A program made the position numbers and the translations under genes. The notes beneath the pieces are model-generated. The model was not told the origin of the DNA. It saw only the letters and a program-made list of their open reading frames with translations, and made no database searches. From Haloquadratum walsbyi J07HQW1 (GTDB lineage Archaea > Halobacteriota > Halobacteria > Halobacteriales > Haloferacaceae), in NCBI GenBank assembly GCA_000415965.1, contig KE356560.1:1688808-1752807 (forward strand): 64,000 nt of DNA, in the 5' to 3' direction. This document shows, piece after piece, positions 1-29,469 of the stretch. Position 1 is the stretch's first letter; the number at the start of each line of letters is the position of its first letter.

Positions 1-214
1 AACCAACTCTGGGCGAGGGCGTGAGCGTCCGACTCTGACAAACGAGAGGAGTACCGGGGGCTTGGCATCTTCTCGAAGAGATACCCATCGACCGGTCCCG
101 CACTCACCGATTCGAACGGTGTGGTGGCCTGGTAGTCTGTAAACCTGACATTCCCAACGCAGCGGTGCCGTGGGATTCCTCCCGCCTCCCGCCTTCAGGC
201 TGAGGAGGATGTCA
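1..214 (+). mobile_element. 3' end of a TnpB-type (IS200/IS605-like) element, copy alpha, cut by window edge
   Basis: This GC-rich non-coding stretch is shared with 11807-12060 (opposite strand) and, more divergently, with 30100-30377. Shared landmarks are CAACCAACTCTGGG near the start, AACGAGAGGAGT in the middle, and a terminal hairpin region (CCGCCTTCAGGC) ending in GAGGAGGATGTCAA. Such right ends belong to haloarchaeal IS1341/TnpB-type elements and their short derivatives (PATEs of Haloquadratum); that assignment is from memory. The transposase part would lie left of the window. Confidence 0.6.
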
Positions 215-745
215 ATCCTCACGGTCAGGTTCACGCACTGCTCCCTTTTGTTTGAGTTCAGCGAAGGACGCGAACACCCCTTCTGACCTGCGTATCGTTA
301 TTCGGTCGACTCTTGCTGTGTACAGATTCGCATTTCGTAGGTCGGTCTCAGTCAGGTCGACCTCAGAGAGGTCTGCCTTGGTGAGATCAGCATCAAAGAG
401 TTTAGCACCCGAGAGATCCGCTTTGGGGAGCTCAGCACCAGAAAGGTCGGCGTTCGAGAGATCAGCCCCGGAAAGGTCACTTCCAGGGAGCTCAGCACTT
501 GAGAGAGTCGCATTCGAGAGGTCAACACCAGAGAGGTCCGCCCCGGAGAGGTCCGCATCGTGGAGCTTTGCCCTTGAGAGATCGGCACCAGAGAGGTTTG
601 TCCCGGTAAGATCGGCGCTTGAGAGAGTTGCATTTGAGAGATCAGCCCCAGAGAGGTTCAGCCCTGAGCAATCAGCCTCTCGTCTAATATCAGTCTCATC
701 AATCGGGTCGTCTGAGTCGAGATTTACCACATAATAATTTACCAC
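212..745 (-). CDS. pentapeptide-repeat protein
   Basis: A 177-residue protein with about 24 uninterrupted A(D/N)LSx pentapeptides from roughly residue 25 to 145, predicted to fold as a right-handed quadrilateral beta-helix. It has an acidic N-terminal leader of about 24 residues and a basic C-terminal tail. No signal peptide or membrane segment is visible, so it is probably cytoplasmic. Family members range from gyrase-protecting DNA mimics to proteins of unknown role; nothing here decides between them. Its stop codon (212-214) lies inside the terminal bases of the mobile element copy that abuts it, so the present C-terminus may have been created by that insertion. The opposite strand also carries a long open frame, but it is only the mirror of the repeat. 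Confidence 0.85.
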   Translation of the reverse strand: MVNYYVVNLDSDDPIDETDIRREADCSGLNLSGADLSNATLSSADLTGTNLSGADLSRAKLHDADLSGADLSGVDLSNATLSSAELPGSDLSGADLSNADLSGAELPKADLSGAKLFDADLTKADLSEVDLTETDLRNANLYTARVDRITIRRSEGVFASFAELKQKGAVREPDRED

Positions 746-1302: not shown

Positions 1303-1943
1303 TAATATTATTTCGCCGTATCAACACATAAGTTTCGTTGTTAGCTGTCGTATCGTGGCACAGAGACTATGAAAATCACACTGCGAGTAAATCCTTGCGT
1401 GAGGAGTCTCAGCCCGCCCGTCTCTCATCCAGCGTATAAAATCACATCAGCGGTTGTATGGAATCAGCGGGCTCTTCGAGTATAACAGTCGTTGGCAATC
1501 TCACCAGTGTTTCTTTCCGAACCCACACTCAGACTGAGTTCACCTGGAGCGCCCGGTGACGCGTTCGGTTGCGACTCCGGAGACAGAAATCACAGTCCCA
1601 CCAACTGATAACCACAGTCGCAATCTATCACCGAGATTGAGCTGGTATACGAGTCGCCACAGACAAGACTACCTCACGGTGATGAGAGAGGTGGACAGAG
1701 CCGATACCCAATCACGCACTCGTTGGATGTTGAGAGCGTGATAATGGTCCATATCGAAGAAATTCATTGCAGATTATCTCCCTTCGGCAATTGCACCTGG
1801 CAGACGACATGACGCTTCGTAGTAACTCAGTGGAGTTGTGCCCGCTCGGCGAACAGTATCACAACTCAAAAAAAAGGACCGATGACGGTTGTTCGAGGCG
1901 AAAGCCCACAGCTCTAGCCGTGAGAAGAGATCAACTACAGTTG
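1303..1943. other. 641-base spacer holding a short derivative of a decayed element
   Basis: No convincing gene. Bases 1484-1612 are one of three copies of a 120-130-base sequence (see 5046-5175 and 29351-29469). Around 1855-1875 the 15-mer GAACAGTATCACAAC matches the far end of the longer copy at 3874-5330, so 1484-1880 looks like an internally deleted version of that element. Confidence 0.55.
1484..1612 (+). repeat. three-copy dispersed repeat, copy 1
   Basis: About 129 bases closely similar to 5046-5175 on the opposite strand and 29351-29469 on the same strand. Shared blocks include CCGAACCCACA and GGAGACAGAAATCACA or near variants. Read in one frame the copies give a related peptide ending near RRQKSQSHQL, so the repeat probably derives from a coding region. 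Confidence 0.75.
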
Positions 1944-3411: not shown

Positions 3412-3783
3412 GTGACCGAACAAACGCGACTTCCAGTCTGGTGTGGTGGGGAGGAGTGGTGTCCAGTCACGTCAACAGCGACGTTAATCGGGCGAAAGTG
3501 GCATCCAGTAATCGTTGAACGACTCCTGGACGACGGACCGATGGGATTCAGTGAGCTCAAAGAAGCCGTCGACGGGATATCGAGTAAAGTGTTATCGGAT
3601 GTGGTTGAGGACTTAGAACAGAAGGAATTGCTTGATCGAGCAATCATCAGTGAAAAGCCGTTTCGTGTCCAATATTCGCTGACAGACCGTGGAGCTGACC
3701 TACGACCAGTCATTGAAGCGATGGACCGCTGGGGTCGTGATCATCTGCAGTCTGCCTCCGATGAGGAGGAGTCTATTGTCTAG
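3412..3783 (+). CDS. HxlR-family winged-helix transcriptional regulator
   Basis: A 123-residue DNA-binding protein with the HxlR layout: WCPVTSTATLIGRKW near the N-terminus, where most members have CPV...LIGGKW, then a winged helix ending in the wing around residues 60-85. HxlR proteins are usually dimers that respond to small molecules or oxidants through the N-terminal Cys; here there are two Cys (CGGEEWC). The frame is open upstream to an ATG at 3361, but that ATG overlaps a palindrome and lies before the TATA-like box; the GTG at 3412 fits a leaderless start. The gene is solitary, so its targets cannot be inferred beyond possible self-control. Confidence 0.8.
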   Translation: MTEQTRLPVWCGGEEWCPVTSTATLIGRKWHPVIVERLLDDGPMGFSELKEAVDGISSKVLSDVVEDLEQKELLDRAIISEKPFRVQYSLTDRGADLRPVIEAMDRWGRDHLQSASDEEESIV

Positions 3784-3873
3784 CAGTTATTGGCAATACG
3801 ATTTCTTTATTCAGTCTCCGATCTGAATTTTTTATGATTGATTCACCGAGATTCTGACGTATGCCTACGGTTC

Positions 3874-5330
3874 GATTCAGTCTTTCCTCTTTGGGTTGTG
3901 ATACTGTTCATCAACAGACTTCAGCCGCAGCTTTCCGAAGTTGTCTCGGGAGTGCGAACCGGTCCTCGTGAAACCGTTCTTCACAGTCCTCAGCGGGCAG
4001 TCCCCGAGGTACGTTACGATCTGTCTGTGTTCCACTGTCTCCAGTCTGAAGACCTCGCGCTGTTCAAGGATCTTCTTCTCGCAGAGCCGGAGGTCGTCGC
4101 GATTCTTAACCCACCGCAGTCACAGCACAGACCTGTCGGTCGCCTCTGGATATTCCGACGCCACCACGAACGGCATCACCAACTCGATGAGGCACATCCC
4201 TGCACCTTCGAGCCGGGAGTAATTCAGGATGGTTCGGTCTATCGTCTGCATGTACTTTCATTCGACCTCGCCGTAGCCGTAGTGACGCTTCCCACTGAAC
4301 TGAGGTCCGTCAACCACAGCCTCGCCAAGCGTGATCACCGCTGTATCATCGGCGTGTATGTAGGTGTGGACATCCCACTTCGTCGTCTGCTGCTGTTTTC
4401 GTTGGTCTTCTCGGCGACTTATATGGTCTCGTGAGCGAATGCTCAGTGACCAGCTTGAACACGGAGATTGTGCGTATTCAGCGCATTCCAAGCGCGCGTA
4501 TCCAGCAGCCACGGGTGCATCGCCTTCCGCTGGAAGAAAACATCGTCGGAGGCCTCCACGTCGGGCAGACCGCTCCCAATGTTAAGGCGGATGCCCGACT
4601 GCGTATCTTCTTCGGGGAACGGCCTGAACTGACCGGACAGGAAGACACCTCGTGGCTGGCGGAGAGCACCCTGTGCGTCTCGGGATCAAGATGCTGACCG
4701 AGAGCGTGTATGATGATGTTCCTACGTAGTACGGATGACCGATGCAGTCCATCCACAGCTCTCACAGGACTTGCTGAATCATCCTCATTGGTCTGGTCTC
4801 CATTCGGTGTAGTCATCGATTATGAGTCGGAAATTGGGGAACTTGTTCCCGGCTCGGTAGTTATCCAGCAGTGCCGCCACCAGCAACGTGTGGAACGCCA
4901 AACTCGTATACAGATTGTCAAGGCGACTGCCTCGGGGCTTTGATGTTGATGTGACCCCGAGGCAGGTTCACGGGTAGATACACCGAGTTGTTGAACGCGG
5001 CGGCGACATCGGACGCCAGCCATTGTTCGTGCGTTGTTTATGCGTACAGTTGGTGGGACTGTGACTTCTATCTCCGAAGTTGCAACCGAACGCGTCACCG
5101 GGCGTTCTAGGTGAACTCAGTCTGAGTGTGGGTGTGGGTTCGGAGAGACACGTGATCATATTGCCAACGATTGTTAATGACGACGAGGTCCGTCACCTCG
5201 TTTTCGGTTGTCGCTCGGGAGAACTCGCCGGGGTCGTAGGCTGCCTCACCAGTCAGCAGCGAGAGCCGGTAGTGGCAATCGTGAGTCGGGACGGTCTGTT
5301 CCTGCTTTTGTTGAGGACGCGAGACAGCAG
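3874..5330 (-). pseudogene. decayed long gene of unknown family, probably from a mobile element
   Basis: Reading the minus strand from about 5330 down to 3874 gives long coherent stretches in switching frames: one through the repeat at 5046-5175, one containing NFRLIIDDYTEW, one containing PWLLDTRAWNALNTHNLRVQ, and a final frame from about 4512 to 3874. The final frame contains FSGKRHYGYGEV and KKILEQREVFRLETVEHRQ, is broken by two in-frame TGA codons (near 4258 and 4123), and ends in DEQYHNPKRKD. That implies roughly 450-480 original codons with at least three frameshifts. Composition looks GC-richer than the neighbours, suggesting transfer. I do not recognise the family. Shortened copies at 1484-1880 and 29351-29512 suggest a transposable origin. 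Confidence 0.5.
5046..5175 (-). repeat. three-copy dispersed repeat, copy 2 (within the long decayed gene)
   Basis: Same 120-130-base sequence as 1484-1612 and 29351-29469, here inside the longest version of the element. The translated core reads NNRWQYDHVSLRTH and continues to QKSQSHQL. Confidence 0.75.
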
Positions 5331-6664: not shown

Positions 6665-7471
6665 TCTCCGCTAAAATAAAAAATATAAGCTTGATTTCAC
6701 GTTGAGACACGCTTGACGGTGCTGTGAGTGCTTTAGTTGATCATCGCCGCTTCGCTCCCTTTTTAACGTATCTAAGCGAGACATCGCCGTTGTCGTCAAA
6801 ATAATAAATTCAGACCTTTCCTGTGGTAGTTATAACTGGATATCGCTCATTTCATTTATATCAGTAAGATCAATTATAATGACAATAATAATTATGAATC
6901 TGAACCATGAGAGATTAAATGGAATAATGCTTGTATGTATGCCCTGGAGAAGCGATTGATAGAAGTACCTGTCAGATTTCGGTCACCCCCGTCTCAACGT
7001 CGGAGGGAGCTATCTGTCCTGGCTGTGGGGAATCAATTGAGTAACCACTGGATGGAGTGCCCCCATGAGCGTATTCTCACATGAATGACTGTCATACCGC
7101 CGTCACATATCTCTATAGAGGATAACTCACTCATAGCGTGATGATAAGACCCGATAGTCAAAATTATGATATAAAGTAAGTGATAAAAAGAACATTATGT
7201 AATCATTCAAATTATGTTATTGTATATAATGGTTCATCAGTCGTCGAGCGTTAATCATCAACAATCAATACTATCGACATGTGCAATATTCGAGAGAAGA
7301 AATAATACTGATCAATATATACTCTCGATACCGATCTATAGTGCACTTACAAGAAGTTAAGATATCAGGCTAACGAATACTCACATATTGAAGCTTGAGT
7401 AGACTAACTTATAATCAGTTTACGAACGGGCTGGGTCAACAGTAACTCCTCACTCTCACTCTCACTGTAGC
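6665..7471. other. 807-base AT-rich spacer
   Basis: Very AT-rich at 6820-6920 and 7150-7400, with no long frames. Around 6975-7050 one plus-strand frame reads like a zinc-ribbon fragment (CPGCGESIE) between stops, possibly the relic of a small gene. A TATA-like CTTATAATCA at 7409-7418 probably serves the next gene. Confidence 0.4.
7449..7466. repeat. three tandem CTCACT hexamers before a start codon
   Basis: Three perfect copies of CTCACT end six bases before the ATG of the following membrane-protein gene, within its presumed leader of about 33 bases. A change in copy number would alter leader length without changing the protein. Confidence 0.7.
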
Positions 7472-8539
7472 ATGACAGAACCAGATAGTGTGTCGATACG
7501 CTTGCTGAATATCCGTAATCGATGGTCCCAAATTTTGGGGTGTATATTCATTGGTGTCATTTTTGCTGTAGGGTATACCTGGCTTATCGGTCCGAGTGCA
7601 CTGTGGCAGGCGTTGACGAGCGTTTCGTCCTGGCAATTTGGATTCTTACTTCTGATTAGTACTGTTCCGATGATCCTGTGGGGGAGTGGCTTCTACGTTA
7701 TTCTTCGCCGACTTGGACATGCAGGAAGTTTTGTTGTCTCAATATTACTCATGAATGCATCGGGATTTCTCAACACCATCACACCGTTTGGACAACTTGG
7801 CGGGAATCCCCCCGCTGCGCTGTTAATTAAACGAGCACTTGGGACTGATTTTGAAACAGCATTGGCAGCAATCGGGGTAATAAATGCAACAAATCGTCTT
7901 GCATCGCTGTTTTTAGGCTTTCTTGCTGCGAGTTACTTGGGATGGCAACTCGTTGTTGAACGGGCATTTAATACGGCAATTTTCACACTCACTGGTGTCA
8001 TAGTCGCCGCCGTGTTTGCGGTCGGATTTTTATGGCAGTATCGATACATGCTTGTTGATTACAGTAGTTGGGTGCTCTCAATTATATCGAAACCGCTTGA
8101 TTATCTCCCGCGGATTACCGCTCCATCACAACAACGGTTTCAGCAGCATGGAGTGCAGTTTATTGAGGCACTAGAGTTGCTCGCAACTGCGCCAGCACAG
8201 CTAGCGCTTGTATTTGGGTTGTGCATGGCTGGACAGATTTTCATTGCGGGAATTCTCTGGGCAGCACTCACAGCGCTTGGTGCTGAGTCATTATTTGTAA
8301 CGGTCTTACTCGTTATTCCAATCGCCAAACTCGGTGCAGTTGCACCAACACCAGGCGGTCTTGGAGCCGCAGAAACAATATTGACCGGAGCGCTCGTGAC
8401 TATGACAGGTATGTCTTCAGCAGTTGCTGGCGCGGCGGCACTACTATATCGTGCGAGTGCGTTTTGGATTCCAGCACTCAGTGGTGGATTCATTACCGCG
8501 TGGTATCTGACGCACAAGTCTGCATCTCAAAAGACATGA
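7472..8539 (+). CDS. UPF0104 / lysylphosphatidylglycerol-synthase-type membrane protein (flippase-like)
   Basis: A 355-residue integral membrane protein with about eight hydrophobic helices. It shows the signatures of the UPF0104 / YbhN family: NTITPFGQLGGNPPAALLIK in the middle and APTPGGLGAAE near the C-terminus. This family corresponds to the lipid-flipping half of bacterial MprF and is often linked to cell-envelope lipid or polyprenyl handling; the archaeal substrate is not known. No synthase domain is attached. The start is supported by a TATA-like box near 7409-7418 with a short leader. It is followed by a convergent NikR-like gene, so it is probably monocistronic. Confidence 0.85.
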   Translation: MTEPDSVSIRLLNIRNRWSQILGCIFIGVIFAVGYTWLIGPSALWQALTSVSSWQFGFLLLISTVPMILWGSGFYVILRRLGHAGSFVVSILLMNASGFLNTITPFGQLGGNPPAALLIKRALGTDFETALAAIGVINATNRLASLFLGFLAASYLGWQLVVERAFNTAIFTLTGVIVAAVFAVGFLWQYRYMLVDYSSWVLSIISKPLDYLPRITAPSQQRFQQHGVQFIEALELLATAPAQLALVFGLCMAGQIFIAGILWAALTALGAESLFVTVLLVIPIAKLGAVAPTPGGLGAAETILTGALVTMTGMSSAVAGAAALLYRASAFWIPALSGGFITAWYLTHKSASQKT

Positions 8540-8564
8540 TCTGAATACCTTGCAGCGCTGCGAT

Positions 8565-8582
8565 ATCGATATTTATATCGAT
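8565..8582. terminator. perfect inverted repeat between convergent genes
   Basis: ATCGATA and TATCGAT separated by four bases, just after the membrane-protein gene and before the 3' end of the convergent NikR-like gene. Position suggests a transcript-end hairpin, though no long T-run follows. Confidence 0.35.
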
Positions 8583-8715
8583 GATACTCGTTGCATATCC
8601 TCAGAGCGCCCACCTAGTATAAAATAGCTGAAAGGACAGCTCACGATCAATCGAAATCAGCAACGGAGCAAGCGAGTAGACTGAGACTGAAGACGATACT
8701 CAATAAATACGTCCT

Positions 8716-9144
8716 CTACGTCATTTCTGCAAGCGGACCAAAGTCATCAACCGGCAACACGGAGTAATCAATCGTGAGCGTATTCTTTGTGGCGCGAATC
8801 TTGCCGACGAATGTCGAGATCGTCTCGAGTGACCCCTCAAGAACGAATAATTCCATGCAGTGATGACCGCCAACATGACTATGAAAGTTTGAGGCGACGA
8901 TATCCTCGTGTTCATGTCGAAGGTGCATCATTTTCTCCTCAACATTCGTTGTTTCATAGTCAAACACAACCGTCACGATACCCATTAATTCACGATCTTC
9001 GAGTCGTTTATCCTCAAATTCCTCTAATAGATTCCGACTCGCTTCTCGAAACACCTCACTTCGACCTGTATAGCCGTGATCATCAGCAAACTGATCAATT
9101 CGCTCAAGCAATTCCTCAGGCATTGAGACGCTGACAACGCTCAT
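8716..9144 (-). CDS. nikR: NikR-like nickel-responsive transcriptional regulator
   Basis: A 142-residue protein with an N-terminal ribbon-helix-helix ([20 protein letters not shown], about residues 5-45) and a C-terminal ACT-like metal-binding domain. The NikR nickel ligands align well: His77, His88, His90 and Cys96 within [20 protein letters not shown]. Their spacing (11, 2, 6) matches the Escherichia coli set H76, H87, H89, C95. NikR normally represses nickel uptake genes when nickel is plentiful. No nickel transporter or urease gene lies nearby, so its targets are elsewhere. The frame extends 23 codons upstream, but a TATA-like CTTAATATT lies about 25 bases before the ATG at 9144, which I chose as a leaderless start. 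Confidence 0.85.
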
Positions 9145-9508
9145 ATAATAATCCATGCCCAAGAAAATATTAAGTATTGTTATCGAAACGGAGACTCCCA
9201 CACGAGAGTTCATAAGATGATTTCAAAGAGTCCACACTTGACAAGGTGATATCCGGCATAGGTGAGAATGAAGGTATTACTCTGGGTCGCTCCGAACGCT
9301 CATGATGTTGCTCTCAGCATGGTGTCAGGTCGATACTCATGTTTCGATCATATGCTCAATCTCATGAATCTCTCAATATTTTTTTTCCATCTCAGCGCGT
9401 AGGCACTCTCCTCTCTATGAGGCTATTATTTTCGATCAAAAACCTCATAGATATGATAGAGACAGAAAGCGGGTTTCGCTGCTTCCTCATTTTGAATTCG
9501 GAGGATAC
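9145..9508. other. 364-base spacer between two minus-strand genes
   Basis: Contains the NikR-like gene promoter at its left end. Otherwise AT-rich, with nothing recognised; short open frames on both strands lack start context. Confidence 0.4.
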
Positions 9509-10162
9509 TTATATAAATGAGGCACTGAGGAACGAGAGACCCACATTGAGGAGAATTTGAACCACAACGACTGCTCCGACGACAATCCCTGCATTCTGAA
9601 TCGATATGTTTCTGATTTGTGCAACCGCGTGCGTCCATATCCACCCAGCCCAAATGAACGTTCCCGCATTCACCGCGTGATTCACAAATCCGATTGTTCC
9701 GGTTGTTGCCATCTGTGAAAGTTGCCGAGCCTGCTGTGGATCAGAGAAGTTTGTTCCAGAGATCAAAATAAATCCGGTTATCCCTCCAATCACGGGAACA
9801 ATCACCCGTGGAGCAAAACCCCACCCGATGACTGCAAACAGATCACGGAATTCGCCGTCGCCACCGAACACGAGCGAGCCAATAAAAAATAACCCTCCGA
9901 TAATCAGCCACGACAGAAATGGTCCAATCACTCCAAGCAAACTCCCAACGGCAACCGAAATAATGACAAACACACCTGCGTCTCCAGGTGTTGCCTCCGC
10001 AACAGCCAATAATGTTGGAATCGAGCTGAGAAGCCCAACAATTGCGACAGCAGCGACCACCAACGCTGGACGGAACAGGCTGGGTTCATCTGCATCTGTG
10101 TCGGTTTTGAAGAACGATGCCGGGCGTGTAGCGGCGTATTGAATGTCCGATATCATACTCAT
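9509..10162 (-). CDS. Yip1-domain integral membrane protein
   Basis: A 217-residue membrane protein with about five hydrophobic helices, preceded by an amphipathic stretch (IQYAATRPASFFKTD) and a short acidic loop. The overall pattern and the central segment GDGEFRDLFAVIGWGFAPRV match haloarchaeal Yip1-domain proteins. In eukaryotes the Yip1 domain works in membrane traffic; in archaea its role is unknown. The start could be the first Met or the third residue (MISD). The gene stands alone; no signal peptide other than the first helix. Confidence 0.8.
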   Translation of the reverse strand: MSMISDIQYAATRPASFFKTDTDADEPSLFRPALVVAAVAIVGLLSSIPTLLAVAEATPGDAGVFVIISVAVGSLLGVIGPFLSWLIIGGLFFIGSLVFGGDGEFRDLFAVIGWGFAPRVIVPVIGGITGFILISGTNFSDPQQARQLSQMATTGTIGFVNHAVNAGTFIWAGWIWTHAVAQIRNISIQNAGIVVGAVVVVQILLNVGLSFLSASFI

Positions 10163-10815
10163 TCTTCCATGTTCACCTCACTGTGGATCATTTATAATCC
10201 GTATGATGAGTTACAGTGAATGTAACAGCAAAGAATAAAAAAGACTGTTCAATCAGCAAACGTCCCTGAAGCATGTTTTGTGTCGTGTATAAGAAGGTGA
10301 CTGATCCGGGTGTCTGATACTGATTTTCGTCATTTTGAGTGCGTGATATTGTCGTTATTATCATTGGATCCGGTGAATTTGGTATCTAATGGATTAAGAT
10401 GACAGTGAGGTCATCTACTATAATGATTTTAGAAAGCGCCTCCGGAGATGTACCAATACGTCAATCAAGGCTCCGCGCTCTGGTGGGCAATATGCACGGT
10501 TCTGGCGTAGACCTGCTCAATCTTGTCGGCGTCAATAGCTATCTCCCGAGGACGTGGTACTCCTGGTCAGCCGAATTGACTGATTTACCTGATTGATCAT
10601 AGCAGTAGTTGTCACTCTGACCACTGTGTCCCCGTGGAACCGTATCAAGCCTGAGCGACAGTTCCCGTATTTCGCTTCGAATAGTGCCAACAACTGATAA
10701 TGGATTGCAGTAGCGTCGTTGAATCATCATTCGGAGAATGTGTATTCATGTATACATTGTCTGGTTCTGTTGAAATCTCTAGAAGGTAACAGTCTCACTC
10801 ACTGATTGCTAATTG
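10163..10815. other. 653-base spacer upstream of an IS5-type relic
   Basis: No gene recognised. A 65-codon plus-strand frame at 10399-10596 has a natural-looking end but no family or promoter that I can see. The right third is likely part of the decayed insertion sequence. Confidence 0.35.
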
Positions 10816-11628
10816 ATGGACATTGTTCCGAAATCTGACCTACTTCGGGTTGTCAAACGTGTACTCGAACTGGCGCAATAGATGATTGCCTGCTACTCGT
10901 CAGAATACCCCAGACGACGATACAGCGAGCCTCAACGATGATTTTGCTCTATCTTAACTTGAAGAAGACGACTGCATATCCGGATCTCGTTGACAAACTC
11001 ACCGAGATGCCTCAGGTTCGTGATGCCCTCTCCTTCGATTTGAGCCCTGCAGTATCCAATTCACCCTGTCGAAAGCGTTTGGTCGCGTGAAGATGACCGT
11101 CTGGCGTGTTCTGTTGGGGGTCTCAGTTACTAGACTTCCATAACAACGTAACTGGTATTGATGCATCTGAGTTTGAGCGAGCATATACCTCAGCTCATTA
11201 TACCAACCGAACCGATCTTACGATACAACAGTTGAAAATGGTGCTATTGGTCGACACCGTGAGCAACGCAGTCCTTGATATTCATGTGACGATGACGCGG
11301 AACCACGATGCACAGATTGCACCACGAGTAGTGAAACGCAGTGCGGAGTCGATTACAGCACTGATCAGGGGGTGTGACGACCAGAAGCTTCAGCAGTTTG
11401 CCCGGAGTGCGATATCTGACTACTGATCAAGCATCGTGAGTTCTCGTCGCTCCACTGAGCGTGGAACTTACAACTGGACACTGACCTGTATCATCAACGG
11501 AGCATAAAAAGATAGTCACTGCGGCGATCAAACAGAAATTCGGTGCATTCGTGCGGTCACAGCTCTGGTGGGAGCGGTTCCACGAACTTGGTATCAACTG
11601 TATCGTTGACAATCTGGAGGGGGGCTGA
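10816..11628 (+). pseudogene. decayed IS5-type transposase
   Basis: Relic of a haloarchaeal IS5-family (DDE) transposase spread over all three plus frames. The N-terminal part is read near 10816-11090 (VDKLTEMPQVRDAL), the catalytic core at 11106-11426 (GIDASEFERAYTSAHYTNRT, then LVDTVSNAVLDIHVTMTR), and the C-terminal part ends at 11628 with KFGAFVRSQLWWERFHELG. Stops and frame changes separate these blocks, and part between the core and the C-terminus is missing. The first catalytic Asp (GIDAS) and the LVDT segment are typical of the family. It cannot encode an active enzyme. Confidence 0.75.
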
Positions 11629-11806
11629 ATCTGTCATGTGATGAGTTCGGAAACGCATAATCTTGAACGGAGTAGACTGTTGCGTATAAAGAATGAGTGC
11701 AACGGACGAGAAACTCGCGTTTACTTGGAGAGTACACTATTCATTAGTGTTTTGTCTATCGATATTGTCGCACACAGTCAGAATCTAGACGGTGGGTAGT
11801 TCAACA

Positions 11807-12410
11807 TTGACATCCTCCTCCGCCTGAAGGCGGGAGGAATCCCACGGCACCGCACCGCTGCGTTGAGTTGAGTTGGGAATTTCAGGGTTGGGTTGACAGA
11901 CTCCCAATACCAAGCCACCACACCGTTCGAATCGGTGTGGGACCGGTCGATGGGTAGTCTCCTGGGAGTGCCACATCTCAGCTCTAGCTTAGCTTCCGCC
12001 CCCGGGACTCCTCTCGTTTGTCAGAGTCGGACGCCCACGCCCACGCCCAGAGTTGGTTGTGCCTCGGGGCGTCCGACACCGACAGACTCAGACTTCAGCG
12101 GACACGGACTCGGAGTTACTTTCACTGCGAGTTTCGCCCGGTGGTTGTTGTTTGATTCCCACAGAGGGTACACCCTGGTTCCAGCGTGGGCGGACACTCA
12201 CAGTTACACTCACACTCATACTCGAACCGCCAGTTTCGGGCACTCGGCTACACTGGGGTCGTAACCACTGCGCCGACAGTGACATTCACATATACATATG
12301 CGCTGTTTGTGGAGAAAACTGTGTGGAATTCCCACTGTGACGGCGCGTATCCACAGCCTCAGTGGGATTGCGCCTGCTCCGCGTATAATTATATGATTTT
12401 TATCATATAA
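11807..12410 (-). mobile_element. palindrome-associated, TnpB-type non-coding element, copy beta (PATE-like)
   Basis: About 600 bases with no open transposase. Read on the minus strand, it begins with a palindrome at 12389-12410 (TTATATGAT and ATCATATAA around four T) and ends in the same GC-rich right end as 1-214: CAACCAACTCTGGG, AACGAGAGGAGT, the CCGCCTTCAGGC hairpin and GAGGAGGATGTCAA. Size, left palindrome and TnpB-like right end fit the PATE elements described for Haloquadratum walsbyi; the name is applied from memory. The interior carries GTGAG/CTCAC-rich low-complexity sequence. Confidence 0.65.
12389..12410. repeat. perfect 9-base-arm palindrome at the left end of element beta
   Basis: Arms TTATATGAT and ATCATATAA with a four-base loop, flanked by GCGT on one side and ACGC on the other, which would extend the hairpin. 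Probably recognised by a Y1-type transposase as the element's left end (inference). Confidence 0.7.
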
Positions 12411-12710
12411 ACGCAGATGGATTCGTCGTGATGCTATATTCATTGATTATGATTGAGATAATAACGCATGATTATGCTAAAAGATATAAATAAACAACGA
12501 AAGAACAGATATAAGATATGCACTTACCCAAATGTCCAATTAATCGGCGAGTCTCGAAAAGAGTGCTTTCGAATCCGAAGCGAAGCTAAATGGTAAAGAG
12601 AAGATACGTTACTGAATGCAGTTGCATCTCGGGTTGTTGACCGACAGAGAACCAACGAGATACCCCGGACACATTTCCGAAGGCACTACCGGGGATTAGT
12701 GAGTCGATGA
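12411..12710. other. 300-base spacer between element beta and the propeller lipoprotein gene
   Basis: AT-rich first half and mixed second half. I see no gene or repeat in it. Confidence 0.4.
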
Positions 12711-15993: not shown

Positions 15994-16131
15994 CCGACGC
16001 GAACATTGTGCATACAATGCTCACGTCGCGCGTTGATTGATCTCAGCCGTCGAGTAACTGAGTTACATTGCGCCATTAACAACGAGTAATTACAAACCTA
16101 TATAGACAATTCACAATCTCACCCTTGATTC

Positions 16132-16302
16132 TTATTCAGCCTCTTCACGCTCTTCATCAATCTCCAATAACTTCTCTGCAATGAGGGACATCGAAGTATC
16201 ACCATCAACCAACAGTTCAAGATGTTCACGTTCCGAGATTGCCTGTAATAATGTCTCTCGATCCAGTTGTTCTGTTTCTGATTCTGACTTTGCCTCACTC
16301 AT
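16132..16302 (-). CDS. small acidic protein overlapping a broken upstream gene
   Basis: A 56-residue, very acidic, helix-prone protein (MSEAKSESETEQLDRETLLQ at the start, EEREEAE at the end). Its ATG lies inside ATGAGTGA, overlapping the stop of the gene before it (TGA at 16295-16297), a classic coupled pair. The partner is frameshifted. Two-gene layout and size recall small toxin-antitoxin or regulator pairs, but no family is recognised. The track-like longer frame through 16596 is a mixture of two genes. Confidence 0.55.
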   Translation of the reverse strand: MSEAKSESETEQLDRETLLQAISEREHLELLVDGDTSMSLIAEKLLEIDEEREEAE

Positions 16303-16560
16303 GACTAACGACCTCCTCGTAATCGCCTCGTCTAATAGCACTCGCATACTCCGATCCCGGATTAGGGTAATTCTCGACATTATCACGACAGAACGAATAT
16401 ATCTCAGTTGCATCAAACAACGTCTTCGGGACTGATTTCTCAAGATAACCTTCGATTTATCATCTGTTTGACTCTGTGGGATACGATAGACCATCTCGTT
16501 TCCATCAACATCTTCGACAGTAGCCGAATCTCGATCGTCATTCCGAAAATAATGTCCACA
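16295..16560 (-). pseudogene. frameshifted partner gene of the 56-residue acidic protein
   Basis: Two protein-like stretches in different minus frames join near 16440: the upstream one contains DGNEMVYRIPQSQTDDKSKV, the downstream one runs VPKTLFDATEIYSFCRDNVE and ends in GDYEEVVSHE. Together they would make about 85-95 residues. No family recognised; the start is uncertain. Confidence 0.45.
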
Positions 16561-16596
16561 AAACCAGAACAGATTCCGTTGGAGGCACAAATCCAT

Positions 16597-17488
16597 TCAT
16601 CTAATATCTAACTTGAGGATTTCCGTCAGAACGAACATACTAGCCTCTTACCTGAAATTTCCTCAATAATCTCACGTTCAATCCAAATCTCTCTATCATA
16701 TATGATCTTCAGAGCGTAGTGTCAATGATATTCTACATTGGAGTATGTGCAACTTTCCAGAGGTTCTTTTTCCGACACTCAAGACCAACGAACTACGTAG
16801 CGACCCGATATTTTTCTCGTATGAAGAGTACGTCTCTCTGCCGAAGCAATGGTCACTACGACGCATCCGACATACTCTTGCATCTCTTCGTTTTTCTCAC
16901 ACCAAGAGACAGCTCTCTATGGAAGGCACGAGCTTGCTATCCTTGGAATATTAATTTCGACGCTCTGATAATCAAAATCATAACGCACGAGTAAACAATA
17001 ACACGGACTCATCATTATCGGTAACTAATCAGACACGAATACTGGACTCACATGTCTTCATCACATTCAGACTCTGCATTACTAACTTAATGGTAGTTTT
17101 TAGATTATCAGATTACGCCCTCTCCAGGTATGGTTAAGATTAATTTTGTCCTAATTATGTTTTTTGTTGGTTTAGATTCACAAGACGTGGAACTATTACC
17201 ATGATTGGCAGGTACACGTCTGTGGCTGACAGTTAATCAGGTGCGCAGAGGTGATTGATAAAGTCACCTACGATGACCTCGAGTTGGCTGTTATTTACTC
17301 AATTGCTGTGAGGTAAAGCATCAGGTTCATAGGTCGGTATGTCGGTTATTGATGAGATGATTCTTTCTCTGAGTGTGATCATCAGGAGATTGTCCAGAGG
17401 TCACATCAGGACATTTTTCAGAAGTAATTTCGTGGATTACTTCTGCTATTGCACGCTCGGTCTCAATGGAGGTCACACGACGGTGATA
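16597..17488. other. 892-base AT-rich spacer with repeat copy A
   Basis: No gene recognised. Contains copy A of the three-copy repeat (16813-16949). The rest holds only short open frames, some protein-like by chance or decay. Confidence 0.45.
16813..16949 (+). repeat. three-copy direct repeat around the nuclease gene, copy A
   Basis: About 137 bases related to 17933-18044 and 19831-19972. Shared blocks: GAAGAGTACGTCTCT, GCCGAAGCAATGGTCACTAC and CTCACACCAAGAGAC or close variants. One frame translates as EEYVSLPKQWSLRRIRHT, so it may derive from coding sequence. Confidence 0.7.
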
Positions 17489-17680
17489 TCAGTTCCCCTT
17501 ACTCACTGGTGGCTCAATGACGATCAGTTCAGACCCGAGGTACCCGATTTTCACATCATCTGATGTTAACTTATCAACGCGTAGTGTAATCGTATCATCC
17601 CTGCAGATTCCATAGAAAACATTGTTAGAATGATCAGAGAAGCGACCAGTAACTCGCAGTAAATGACGATCACCAATCAT
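17489..17680 (-). CDS. possible small protein of unknown function
   Basis: A 63-residue frame with a natural, beta-rich look (DRHLLRVTGRFSDHSNNVFY, then KIGYLGSELIVIEPP). A second protein-like stretch precedes it in another frame (GDIITVTVRSTLGNCMTASG), so it may instead be the 3' part of a longer broken gene. No family recognised and no clear promoter. Confidence 0.3.
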   Translation of the reverse strand: MIGDRHLLRVTGRFSDHSNNVFYGICRDDTITLRVDKLTSDDVKIGYLGSELIVIEPPVSKGN

Positions 17681-18264
17681 ACCGCTGCCATGGGTAAAGC
17701 ATCACCGGATGCAGTCATACAGTTCCCTAAGGTACTTCTGACCGTGACTGTGATGATATCGCCTACACCAGTTGTGGTGTCTTCCATTGGGGTAGCGCAC
17801 CCAATTTTTTCCAGTTAGCTATATTTAATGCTAACTTATCCCATGGGTAGGGTCAAATAACACACAAATACTCCGAATAAGCTGTATGTCACTGAGCGCA
17901 CGATATACAATAACGACTCAACACAATTTTATTTTCTCGGGTCAAGAGTATATATATCTCTACCGAAGCAGTGGTCGCTATGACATCCGAGTACCACTAC
18001 ATCCCTTCGACTCTCTCACGGCAAGAACGGCTCTTAACGCAAATCTACAGTCATAAGTGGTCAAGAAAAATACACGTCTGTCTCAGCAGGATATACAGAC
18101 ATCACGAATACCGGAAACCAACAAGTAAGCTCTGAACGATTCATTTCCATAGATAGAGATATTATACTACAGCATTTTAGATATACTTGAGTTATCAAAA
18201 GACGCTTGGGAAATGACATAAGATGCTCTACTCATAAACCACTCATATTGTAGGGTAGACTGCT
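17681..18264. other. 584-base spacer with repeat copy B and the nuclease promoter
   Basis: Contains repeat copy B (17933-18044) and a TATA-like CTCATAAACC at 18231-18240 about 27 bases before the nuclease start. Nothing else recognised. Confidence 0.45.
17933..18044 (+). repeat. three-copy direct repeat, copy B
   Basis: The most diverged copy: it shares ACCGAAGCAGTGGTCGCTA, CATCCGAGTA and GACTCTCTCACGGCAAGA with copies A and C. It ends about 220 bases before the nuclease gene. Confidence 0.65.
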
Positions 18265-19644
18265 ATGAGTGAGGATGTATTTGACTTCGATGCTACCGAA
18301 TTAGAAGCGTTCATTCAGCAGTACATGAATCTTGATCAAGGGTCCCAACAGCCTTCGGGCATCTTCTCTATTCTCCGAGGACCCAGAGAAAGGCAGTATC
18401 AAAGTGCTTTACAGTATTTTTTGAATCCACGGAAACCTCATGGGTTCGGATACGCACTTCTCGAGCCATTTCTTTCCGAAGTTGGTATGAATGAATTCAA
18501 CCTGAGCAGCCAACATATCGAAATCAGCGAGGAGGTCTCAATTGCAGACGAAGGCTCAGAACGACGCATTGACCTCATCATTGCCGGTGGGAGCGCGTTA
18601 TCTGAGCATCCTCGATGGGCAGTCTTCATGGAATTGAAAGTCGGAGCTAAGGAAGGCGATGGGCAAACAACATCATACTCTAAAGCGGATAGCTGGAATT
18701 TTAATTGGTTTGACAGCAATGAATTGAATGTAAGTCAGCTAGATGAGAGTCACTTTGTGTATCTGAAACGAGAAGCAGCAAGTCAACCCACGGACATAAC
18801 CAACACGTTTGAGACTCTCAGTTGGAGTGATATAGTTGACCAATTCGAATCTAAGGTTCAAGATTCGCTGTACGACTACCCTAACCGGAGCGTTATTCAG
18901 TTCACGGACTTCATTCAATCACTAAAGGAGACAGAGGGTATGGACTCAGATATCGATACGGACGAACTCAACGAGCGGTTGAATCTCTATTTCGAGCACG
19001 ATAGACTCATTCGGCAAGTTGAGAAGGCGAACAGCCAATTCGAAAGTGATTTTGAGAACGTAAGCACGTATCTGATAGATAGTTGGGAGAACAAAGTTCG
19101 ATATAAATTCGACTTCGAGAACTCAGGCTGGAAAACATCACCATCCAGCACTCCGAAGTGGCAATCGATCTTCCCGGCGTATTGGGACCAAGACCCATTT
19201 AATCAGTCGAGTACAATCAAGCTCTTTTTTCGACATTCTCCAACAACCGAGTCGATCCGGAATCAGCAATTCATATTTAGACTTCGGCTCCCTCCGGCGA
19301 GAAATGTCCACACAAAAAACCATCATGACGGTGAGCAATCATTCAATGATGTATTTGCTGAGAAGTGCACCGGTGAGTACAGCGAACAGATACAGGAAGC
19401 TCTTAATCACATCGATGGTAGTGAATCCAGACTTGACAGTGCTTCTGGTCTTGTCAAGAAGACATACCCGCTAGATCCAAACAATCTAACGGAATCGTAT
19501 TTCGGACAGCTTGAGCGGGCAGTCGAGGAATTTTGTCGTAATGAGGAGTTAGTGACGGCGTTTGACCGAGTGTTTGAGGACTCATACGAAACAGTATTTG
19601 ATATGAAGCCTGAGGGAGAGTTCCCAGGACCACTCCCTGAATAA
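18265..19644 (+). CDS. PD-(D/E)XK nuclease superfamily protein (PDDEXK_4-like)
   Basis: A 459-residue soluble protein. The N-terminal domain has the layout of PDDEXK_4-type nucleases: EFQ-like opening (RERQYQSALQYFLNPRKPHG, residues 41-60), then Asp103 in RRIDLIIAGG, the ExK pair Glu123/Lys125 in WAVFMELKVGAKEGDGQTTS, and a trailing Gln134/Tyr138. This arrangement (D-ExK-QxxxY) is complete, so metal-dependent DNA cleavage is plausible. The C-terminal 250 residues (helical segment 230-270, then mixed alpha/beta) are not recognised. Such single proteins are found in archaeal and bacterial defence islands, often uncharacterised. A TATA-like box 27 bases upstream supports the ATG. It is flanked on both sides by copies of a direct repeat, hinting at acquisition as a unit. 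Confidence 0.75.
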   Translation: MSEDVFDFDATELEAFIQQYMNLDQGSQQPSGIFSILRGPRERQYQSALQYFLNPRKPHGFGYALLEPFLSEVGMNEFNLSSQHIEISEEVSIADEGSERRIDLIIAGGSALSEHPRWAVFMELKVGAKEGDGQTTSYSKADSWNFNWFDSNELNVSQLDESHFVYLKREAASQPTDITNTFETLSWSDIVDQFESKVQDSLYDYPNRSVIQFTDFIQSLKETEGMDSDIDTDELNERLNLYFEHDRLIRQVEKANSQFESDFENVSTYLIDSWENKVRYKFDFENSGWKTSPSSTPKWQSIFPAYWDQDPFNQSSTIKLFFRHSPTTESIRNQQFIFRLRLPPARNVHTKNHHDGEQSFNDVFAEKCTGEYSEQIQEALNHIDGSESRLDSASGLVKKTYPLDPNNLTESYFGQLERAVEEFCRNEELVTAFDRVFEDSYETVFDMKPEGEFPGPLPE

Positions 19645-20361
19645 GAGTAGATCGCTACTACCTGAGTTTGATGTTTTAATGATGCCCCTTGAGAATGGTA
19701 GCGTCGATATGTAATTAATACAGCATACTCCAGAATAACCCAATATTTTCACAACGACTGTATCGGAGTTGGAAATTTTCCGAGATCTCTCCCCAACAGG
19801 CGAAATCAAAGAACCATTACACCCGATATATTCTCTCGTGTGAAGAGTACGTCTCTGTGCCGAAGCAATGATCACTACGACGCGTCCGACATACGTGTAC
19901 ATTGCTCCGACTCTCTCACGCCAAGGGACGACTCTCCATGGACAGGGTTGTTACCCTTGTTCTCTGGATCTTGGCTATGATACAACATGGAGAGCGGGTA
20001 TGAGACTATATTTGTTTGAGTCTATTGAGAGTGACACGACTGCGAACGACAAGGTATGGACAGACAGTTCCCTGGGATCCTCACCGCTGGACACCGGCGG
20101 ATGAAACTGATATATCTATGTTAGAAATTAGTGGGGATTAAATCGGTCCGATCTTTATATCATTCATAATACGGCGATAGTCAGACTATCCCGGGAGGCA
20201 AAAATTGTCCTCCCGGATCACCTCATTCTCAATAGTCATAACAAAGCAAACCAAACCAGACCCAATGATGCTCACTCAGAGAACAGACGCTGGAAACCAC
20301 AGTTACACAACGAGATTTTCAGAGGAAATTATATCTCAACCGGATTGCTCTACTATGCAAT
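19645..20361. other. 717-base spacer with repeat copy C
   Basis: Holds copy C (19831-19972) and, at its right end, a TATA-like AATTATATCTC (around 20329-20338) serving the following lipoprotein gene. No gene recognised. Confidence 0.45.
19831..19972 (+). repeat. three-copy direct repeat, copy C
   Basis: Closest to copy A: shared GAAGAGTACGTCTCT, GCCGAAGCAATG, TCACTACGACGC and CTCTCACGCCAAGGGACGAC. Same orientation as A and B, about 190 bases after the nuclease gene. Confidence 0.7.
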
Positions 20362-20754
20362 ATGCAGCGACGACAATTCATGACTCTTGCCGGTGTTGGA
20401 TTGCTTTCGGCGACAGGGGCCGGGTGTCTTCTCCGCCCGAATCCACAAGATGCAGTTGTCAATATCGCCCCCGCAAGCGTTGATGAAGACGCAAGTGCAG
20501 TGTTATATGCTGACCTTCCACAGGCTGAGCAAGAAATCGTCCGGACGACCCTTACTGAAGGGTTTTATCATGTGTGTGAAGTCCCGGGCACGCTCCGGTC
20601 GTTTGCCCGGCGATTCGGCCCAGAAGACTCTGCAGAGGACTCGTATCTCATATACAAAACCGAGATGTATGGATTGTGGATTCGGATTACAGATACGCTG
20701 CGAGTGTCAACTGCTCCATCACCTGATGAAAATCCTTCTTGTGGTCTCTTATAG
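20362..20754 (+). CDS. small Tat-type lipoprotein, function unknown
   Basis: A 130-residue protein starting MQRRQFMTLAGVGLLSATGA followed by GC, that is a twin-arginine motif, a hydrophobic segment and a lipobox cysteine. The mature part is about 105 residues, acidic, with ASAVLYADLPQAEQEIVRTT and YLIYKTEMYGLWIRITDTLR; it resembles short haloarchaeal lipoproteins of unknown role. The ATG is about 27 bases after a TATA-like box, consistent with leaderless translation. It would be anchored to the outer face of the membrane. No operon partner. Confidence 0.75.
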   Translation: MQRRQFMTLAGVGLLSATGAGCLLRPNPQDAVVNIAPASVDEDASAVLYADLPQAEQEIVRTTLTEGFYHVCEVPGTLRSFARRFGPEDSAEDSYLIYKTEMYGLWIRITDTLRVSTAPSPDENPSCGLL

Positions 20755-20986
20755 GCTTGATTCAAACACGCCGCGGTCCGCATTGAATCCGACAATACAA
20801 TGACAGTCATAACCGACAATATAGCCACATTCACCAGATGATGACTGACACCGAATTCTCAATTCCACACAGCGATACAATCTCGCTAACAGACATTCAT
20901 CCCAATGCCAATCTCACTAATCGTAAAAAACCCATCCTTTCGGGGCAGACCTCACTAATGCTGAATTCTGTCGCGAATATAGAGAG

Positions 20987-29350: not shown

Positions 29351-29469
29351 AACAGTCGGTGGCAATCTGACCACTGTGTCTCTCCGAACCCACATAACTT
29401 ACTTCACCTGGAATGCCCGGTAACGCGTTCCGCTCCGCAGACAGAAATCACATTCCCAACAACTGATAA
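29351..29469 (+). repeat. three-copy dispersed repeat, copy 3
   Basis: Same family as 1484-1612 and 5046-5175. The translated upstream part reads VVNNSRWQSDH, matching VVINNRWQYDH of the long copy. About 40 bases further on, GTGAACAGAGATCATAAC partly resembles the far end of the long copy, so this may be an even shorter deletion derivative. Confidence 0.7.

Follow-up and report, generated by a model that had tools for sequence, protein, structure and literature searches.

The window, a 64,000-nucleotide stretch of Haloquadratum walsbyi J07HQW1 DNA, carries a decayed coding region on its minus strand (3874-5330). tblastn searches with intact relatives as queries confirmed that this region is real and matched it to two genes, hereafter B and C (Table 1). 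The initial annotation had seen here one protein of 450-480 residues. In intact copies, however, the corresponding stretch holds the end of B followed by C, two adjacent genes overlapping by a few codons; hence one protein of 450-480 residues never existed, and the single 480-aa candidate was rejected. The coding relic spans 3784-5328(-) when the right terminal repeat is included, and the right end of the element (3784) thus lies about 90 bp beyond the limit first proposed. This site is the sole strong right end in the 64-kb window, none being found in shuffled windows, and its outer flank reads CTAG (3780-3783). The gene C relic is interrupted by in-frame stops and compensating frameshifts, intact copies being 306 aa long. 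In addition, the window copy lacks the N-terminus of B, a third gene named A, and a transposase gene. A viral origin was rejected, with no match in phage records or IMG/VR, and an Rfam search of window positions 1-30000 gave no match. Elsewhere in the window, a 177-aa ORF (212-745, minus strand) is built of A(D/N)LS-type pentapeptide repeats.

Table 1 Features of the decayed element and related repeats in the window
Feature	Position	Strand	Remarks
MITE copy, 122 bp	1486-1607	+	ATAA/ATAA flanks
Gene C 3'-end fragment and following bases	1842-1887	+	81% over 47 bp, E 2e-4 (within this window)
Right terminal inverted repeat	3784-3814	-	CAGTTATTGGCAATACGATTTCTTTATTCAG on the + strand; 2 mismatches to the 31-bp consensus
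Gene C relic	3877-4803	-	tblastn E 9e-80 to a N. pellirubrum protein (aligned over 4803-3886); predicted RAMP, Cmr3/Cas5-like
Gene B relic	4788-5328	-	tblastn E 2.7e-36 (aligned over 5328-4794); residues ~47-246 of a 246-aa protein of unknown fold
Insert of ~59 bp	4911-4970		inside gene B; alignment gap; near-terminal palindrome GCCTCGGGG...CCCCGAGGC
MITE copy, 127 bp	5047-5173		in gene B; intact gene B is continuous across this point
MITE copy, 113 bp	29353-29465	+	ATAA/ATAA flanks

Two insertions interrupt the gene B relic. The first belongs to a repeat with further copies at 1484 and 29351, both verified by alignment (84.7% over 131 columns, E 6e-36; 74% over 140 columns, E 3e-20). The initial annotation took this 120-130-base stretch for a part of the gene and the short copies for miniature elements that had arisen from the coding parent by internal deletion. 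The shared stretch of about 130 bases speaks for such an origin, together with a second shared 15-mer, GAACAGTATCACAAC at about 1855, which is indeed homologous to the 3' end of gene C. The stretch is absent from intact gene B, however, and it occurs on its own about 40 times in this genome, with its own ends and ATAA duplications. An internal-deletion origin was therefore rejected, intact copies of gene B being free of the repeat, and we give it next to no credence. The repeat is instead an independent MITE family of 113-127 bp, with an internal sequence unrelated to the gene: it is short, non-coding and multicopy, and has inverted ends and a target duplication. The duplications are perfect at the two other window copies, while the flanks of the copy inside gene B are too decayed to reveal one. 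Among 15 MITE loci, duplications were found at 6, a count from automatic end alignment that was misaligned at several of them; the assignment draws on the window copies and on those that aligned cleanly.

The MITE nevertheless has a link to the transposon at its ends. Of the 31 positions of the transposon terminal repeat, 22 are shared by its right end and 17 by its left end; among 20,000 shuffles, 0 and 6, respectively, did as well. The ends of the two are related, yet neither is a deletion product of the other. Since both have related ends and 4-bp target duplications, related transposases probably move both. Haloquadratum MITEs have been described as unlike the transposon that supplies their transposase except at the terminal bases (Dyall-Smith et al., PMC3119063). 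The second insertion, of about 59 bp, was delimited by alignments to intact elements, which stop at its first position and restart at its last. Its sequence recurs at several sites of a relative (G012) with 88-98% identity. It is probably a terminal-only PATE/IS605 remnant, a name given by analogy with PMC3119063. Both repeats behave like the MITEs and PATEs of that study. In G012, a near-identical locus shares the in-frame stops of C, and the alignment also covers the MITE insert. Stops and MITE region being common to both, the locus is an old fossil inherited by the two genomes.

Intact relatives show what the fossil once was. Relatives of C, found in 31 matching records, stand as "hypothetical proteins" in plasmid records. 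They belong to an operon of constant order, A-B-C, present at dozens of haloarchaeal loci; its products in Natrinema pellirubrum have 285, 246 and 306 aa. The third protein, C, gave a match to Cmr3 in PADLOC (2e-7), and A to Csm3 (3.7e-5 for one member, also 2.5e-4); against Pfam RAMPs, A scored 0.012, below the Pfam cutoff. A PDB search with a structure model of C ranked Cas6 at the top (E 6e-4), followed by Csm/Cas7 RAMPs; given the pLDDT of 59, these matches are supportive only. Neither B nor C had a match in Pfam, NCBIfam or PHROGs. B matched no family, and its AlphaFold model (pLDDT 67) had no counterpart in the PDB. From these profile matches, A is a predicted Cas7/Csm3-like RAMP, C a predicted Cmr3/Cas5-like RAMP, and B their constant partner. 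Gene A also encodes a TDRHH motif that is invariant in 8 of 8 aligned clade-1 proteins (clades defined below) and found in one clade-2 protein. Values of dN/dS for A, B and C range from 0.05 to 0.32 and indicate purifying selection, transposase-less loci included. The initial annotation was right that the decayed gene is not itself a transposase: it consists of B and C relics.

A survey of 391 Halobacteria genomes detected gene A in 104. Its loci fall into 53 strong ones, corresponding to clade 1, and 56 weaker ones, corresponding to clade 2, and a tree splits the two with a support of 100; its root was placed at the midpoint, and the relative age of the clades is not read from it. Between clades, A is 51-60% and B 42-53% identical. 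The window copy belongs to clade 1. In this clade, A-B-C is preceded by small genes and, in divergent orientation, by a gene for a transposase of 537-626 aa. An intact element typically measures 3.7-7.3 kb: the transposase lies at its left, some small genes follow, and A-B-C occupies its right, all between inverted ends of about 31 bp, CAGTTGTTGGTAATACGATTTCTTTATTCAG. The right end was recognized as CTGAATAAAGAAATCGTATTACCAACAACTG, about 100 bp 3' of C, beyond which the sequences diverge; an inverse copy forms the left end. It is present in 28/40 and 30/38 clade-1 loci (two overlapping samples) and in 0/40 clade-2 loci, where the best score is at chance level.

Matching 4-bp NTAN target duplications flank at least 12 distinct elements whose ends were placed by local alignment; some elements are delimited from one side only, and a number of left ends were called at low scores (13-15). 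Complete elements were delimited in Haloferax sulfurifontis (L085 6241-12581; 6,341 bp, TTAT/TTAT), in Halovenus (L084 8768-12529; 3,762 bp, TTAA/TTAA), where the transposase is a remnant only, and in Halopiger (L090 6854-12610; 5,757 bp, ATAT/ATAT). Further duplications were seen at a copy in the genome studied here (L070, ATAA), at L077 (ATAA) and at L078 (ATAT). The 2.67-kb element at L070 is absent from the corresponding site of two relatives, in which the flanks lie close together. When the flanks of the Haloferax sulfurifontis element were joined and searched for in its genus, no other strain proved to carry the site, and none did in the corresponding search for Halopiger. Movement of the element is read from its ends, target duplications, empty sites and linkage to a transposase, all of them traces left in sequence. 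On the other hand, no transposase is recognizable near half of the clade-1 loci, and basal clade-1 loci have no clear ends, which indicates that the module is not always mobile.

Additional variation was noted among these loci. At L104, L108, L220 and L229, where A-B-C is present, the right motif ends in ...AAAAA, not CAACTG; such loci are either immobile relics or bear another kind of end. Some elements have a toxin-antitoxin-like pair beside the transposase (L059 4393-4975, L058 5772-6360), in which a ParE-like protein of 99 aa (PF05016, 7e-4, below cutoff) accompanies a ribbon-helix-helix protein. Small cargo proteins encoded upstream of gene A (L059 5644-6012, L061 5506-6281, L060 4987-5457) start with Tat-like signals of the MQRR(Q/E)FL type. 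In the genome of the window, about 15 relics of the element were counted, and all copies examined are decayed. The least decayed material there comprises a segment with a transposase and the greater part of gene A (G000:C1:1948153-1951412) and, about 8 kb away, a copy with the end of A together with B and C (G000:C1:1959068-1961302).

By its match to PF01609 (DDE_Tnp_1, 3e-11), the transposase is a DDE enzyme; its D, D and Y-R-E-K residues are conserved. Its nearest family is ISH3 (NCBIfam 3.6e-33, 2.7e-34 and 7.3e-23), the scores of 115, 118.6 and 81.1 bits falling short of the family cutoff of 225. Like ISH3 insertion sequences (IS4 superfamily), the element has a DDE transposase with a YREK-type motif, inverted ends and a short target duplication. 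In contrast, the ISH3 model covers 298 positions against 537-626 aa here, and the element carries passenger genes. The Haloferax sulfurifontis transposase (L085) is 77% identical to a Halomicrobium one. For 10 of the 12 closest transposase genes in the 391 genomes, the distance to a clade-1 A gene is 1.5-2.7 kb; the remaining two are both in one genome. In clade 2, a remote match (22% identity, on the other strand) was found at one locus and at no other. A second transposase of the same family, without RAMP genes, lies nearby in L061 (13862-16921, Halobacterium salinarum 91-R6 pHSAL2), where its neighbors include a metallophosphoesterase gene and two hypothetical ones; it possibly represents a sister element with other cargo.

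Clade-2 operons are chromosomal and have a different neighborhood. The order of genes is a 200-aa putative zinc protein (40/40 loci), A, B, C, an RNase-H-like exonuclease (36/40; PF13482, 5.8e-5), and an HNH protein (33/40; PF01844, 1.2e-9) or a putative PD-(D/E)xK protein (6/40), the latter assignment being our own reading, which Pfam does not recognize. None of these nucleases was found at clade-1 loci, except at L091, which is home to a separate clade-2 operon. HRAMP systems (Makarova et al. 2019, per PMC8730458 and PMC12669027) comprise Cas5 and Cas7 homologs with an uncharacterized conserved protein; they are haloarchaeal, array-less and type III-derived, and mostly have HNH or PD-(D/E)xK nucleases (PMC8730458, PMC12669027). 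Compared by these review descriptions only, the likeness extends to the Cas7-like A, the Cas5-like C, the conserved partner B and the lack of an array, and in the sister operon of clade 2 the HNH and putative PD-(D/E)xK partners correspond to those of HRAMP as well. Clade 1 differs: it has no nucleases, and it is enclosed by transposon ends with 4-bp duplications, in many cases together with an ISH3-like transposase. Given this absence of nucleases throughout clade 1, the window element is a nuclease-less relative of HRAMP and not a standard HRAMP. The two reviews on which this comparison draws make no mention of a transposon-borne or nuclease-less HRAMP.

Overall, the window feature very probably represents a haloarchaeal DNA transposon whose cargo is a nuclease-less HRAMP core, in a copy that is dead and truncated. 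This agrees with the annotation's view of a coding parent, multicopy in this genome and part of a mobile element. A, B and C may form an RNA-binding complex. We tentatively favor, by analogy, the possibility that the transposon carries A-B-C as selfish cargo that would suppress competing invaders or rival elements, and would do so at the RNA level by binding or cleaving RNA in the manner of Cas7. The element multiplied to about 15 places in this genome, and the copies examined are decayed, the window copy being additionally struck by the MITE and the PATE-like insert.

Alternatively, the RAMP core could help the transposase to pick its target, like Cascade in Tn7-like CASTs. A nuclease-less effector core within transposon ends and beside a transposase is a CAST hallmark, and A-B-C is recurrently associated with at least three transposase lineages, which are 34-63% alike. 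However, no TnsC/TniQ-like partner was seen, and no array-like repeat was found in 92 clade-1 and 40 clade-2 loci. Moreover, comparison of element interiors with insertion flanks in 7 elements revealed no matching sequence that could act as a spacer, and the target duplications show only the loose NTAN preference of an ordinary insertion sequence. RNA-guided transposition thus appears improbable. With neither an array nor a flank-matching spacer found, and the right end showing no conserved RNA fold, selfish cargo acting on RNA is favored over an RNA-guided target selector.

A guide could also come from the transposon itself, if the RAMP complex used the right end as a guide handle. The A-B-C transcript would cross the end repeat into the flank, and each insertion would yield a guide from its own neighborhood. 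Comparable end-derived guides are the omega RNAs of TnpB at IS605 ends. In several clade-1 loci without transposase, left end or terminal CTG, the right-end core ATAAAGAAATCGTATTACCAACAA stays near its place after C. The terminal CTG is lost while the motif core is kept at L104, L108, L220, L229 and L231, and at some of these neither a left end nor a transposase lies within reach. L114 and L231 have a junction in common; the motif is preserved there, in contrast to the diverged spacer that separates it from C, a pattern that would fit an end-derived RNA handle. Against this stands the right end itself, in which no conserved RNA structure was found. We regard the handle as a long shot, slightly less probable still than RNA-guided transposition.

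Another alternative to selfish cargo is that an ISH3-like transposon once captured a defense module, which would serve the host as the resident HRAMP does, perhaps with clade-2 nucleases acting in trans, and would be a neutral hitch-hiker on the transposon. Intact A-B-C genes persist at loci without a transposase or clear left end, and both clades coexist in some genomes, as such a hitch-hiker would lead one to expect. These genomes number only about 8 (hand count in the 391-genome survey), however, so that nuclease supply in trans is not general, and nucleases are missing across the entire clade 1. We consider this explanation rather doubtful, albeit less so than either guided reading.

The known CRISPR-transposon alliances named in a 2025 classification involve Tn7-like, Mu-like or telomeric transposons (PMC12669027). 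Like Tn7-like and Mu-like CASTs, the element has CRISPR effector genes without nucleases within transposon ends. Unlike in CASTs, there are no TnsB/TnsC/TniQ or Mu proteins: the ends enclose a DDE_Tnp_1 transposase, an IS4-superfamily DDE enzyme, and small genes, with no array or guide found and no sign of targeted insertion. A type III-derived, array-less, nuclease-less effector core here travels in a simple IS4-superfamily transposon through many haloarchaeal genera and under purifying selection, and HRAMP systems gain a mobile vehicle. A set of proteins annotated as hypothetical on pNRC200 and other model plasmids become parts of a defined element. In the pNRC200 copy (Halobacterium NRC-1, L058 7032-8016), gene A is lost, remains of a small gene are fused to B, and C is intact. 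The two clades also provide a natural comparison, with and without nucleases and with and without transposase, in haloarchaea that are harmless and genetically tractable. Halosimplex pelagicum would be a natural place for it: at L091, a clade-1 element (6825-12653) and a nuclease-bearing clade-2 operon (16123-20855) lie about 5 kb apart.
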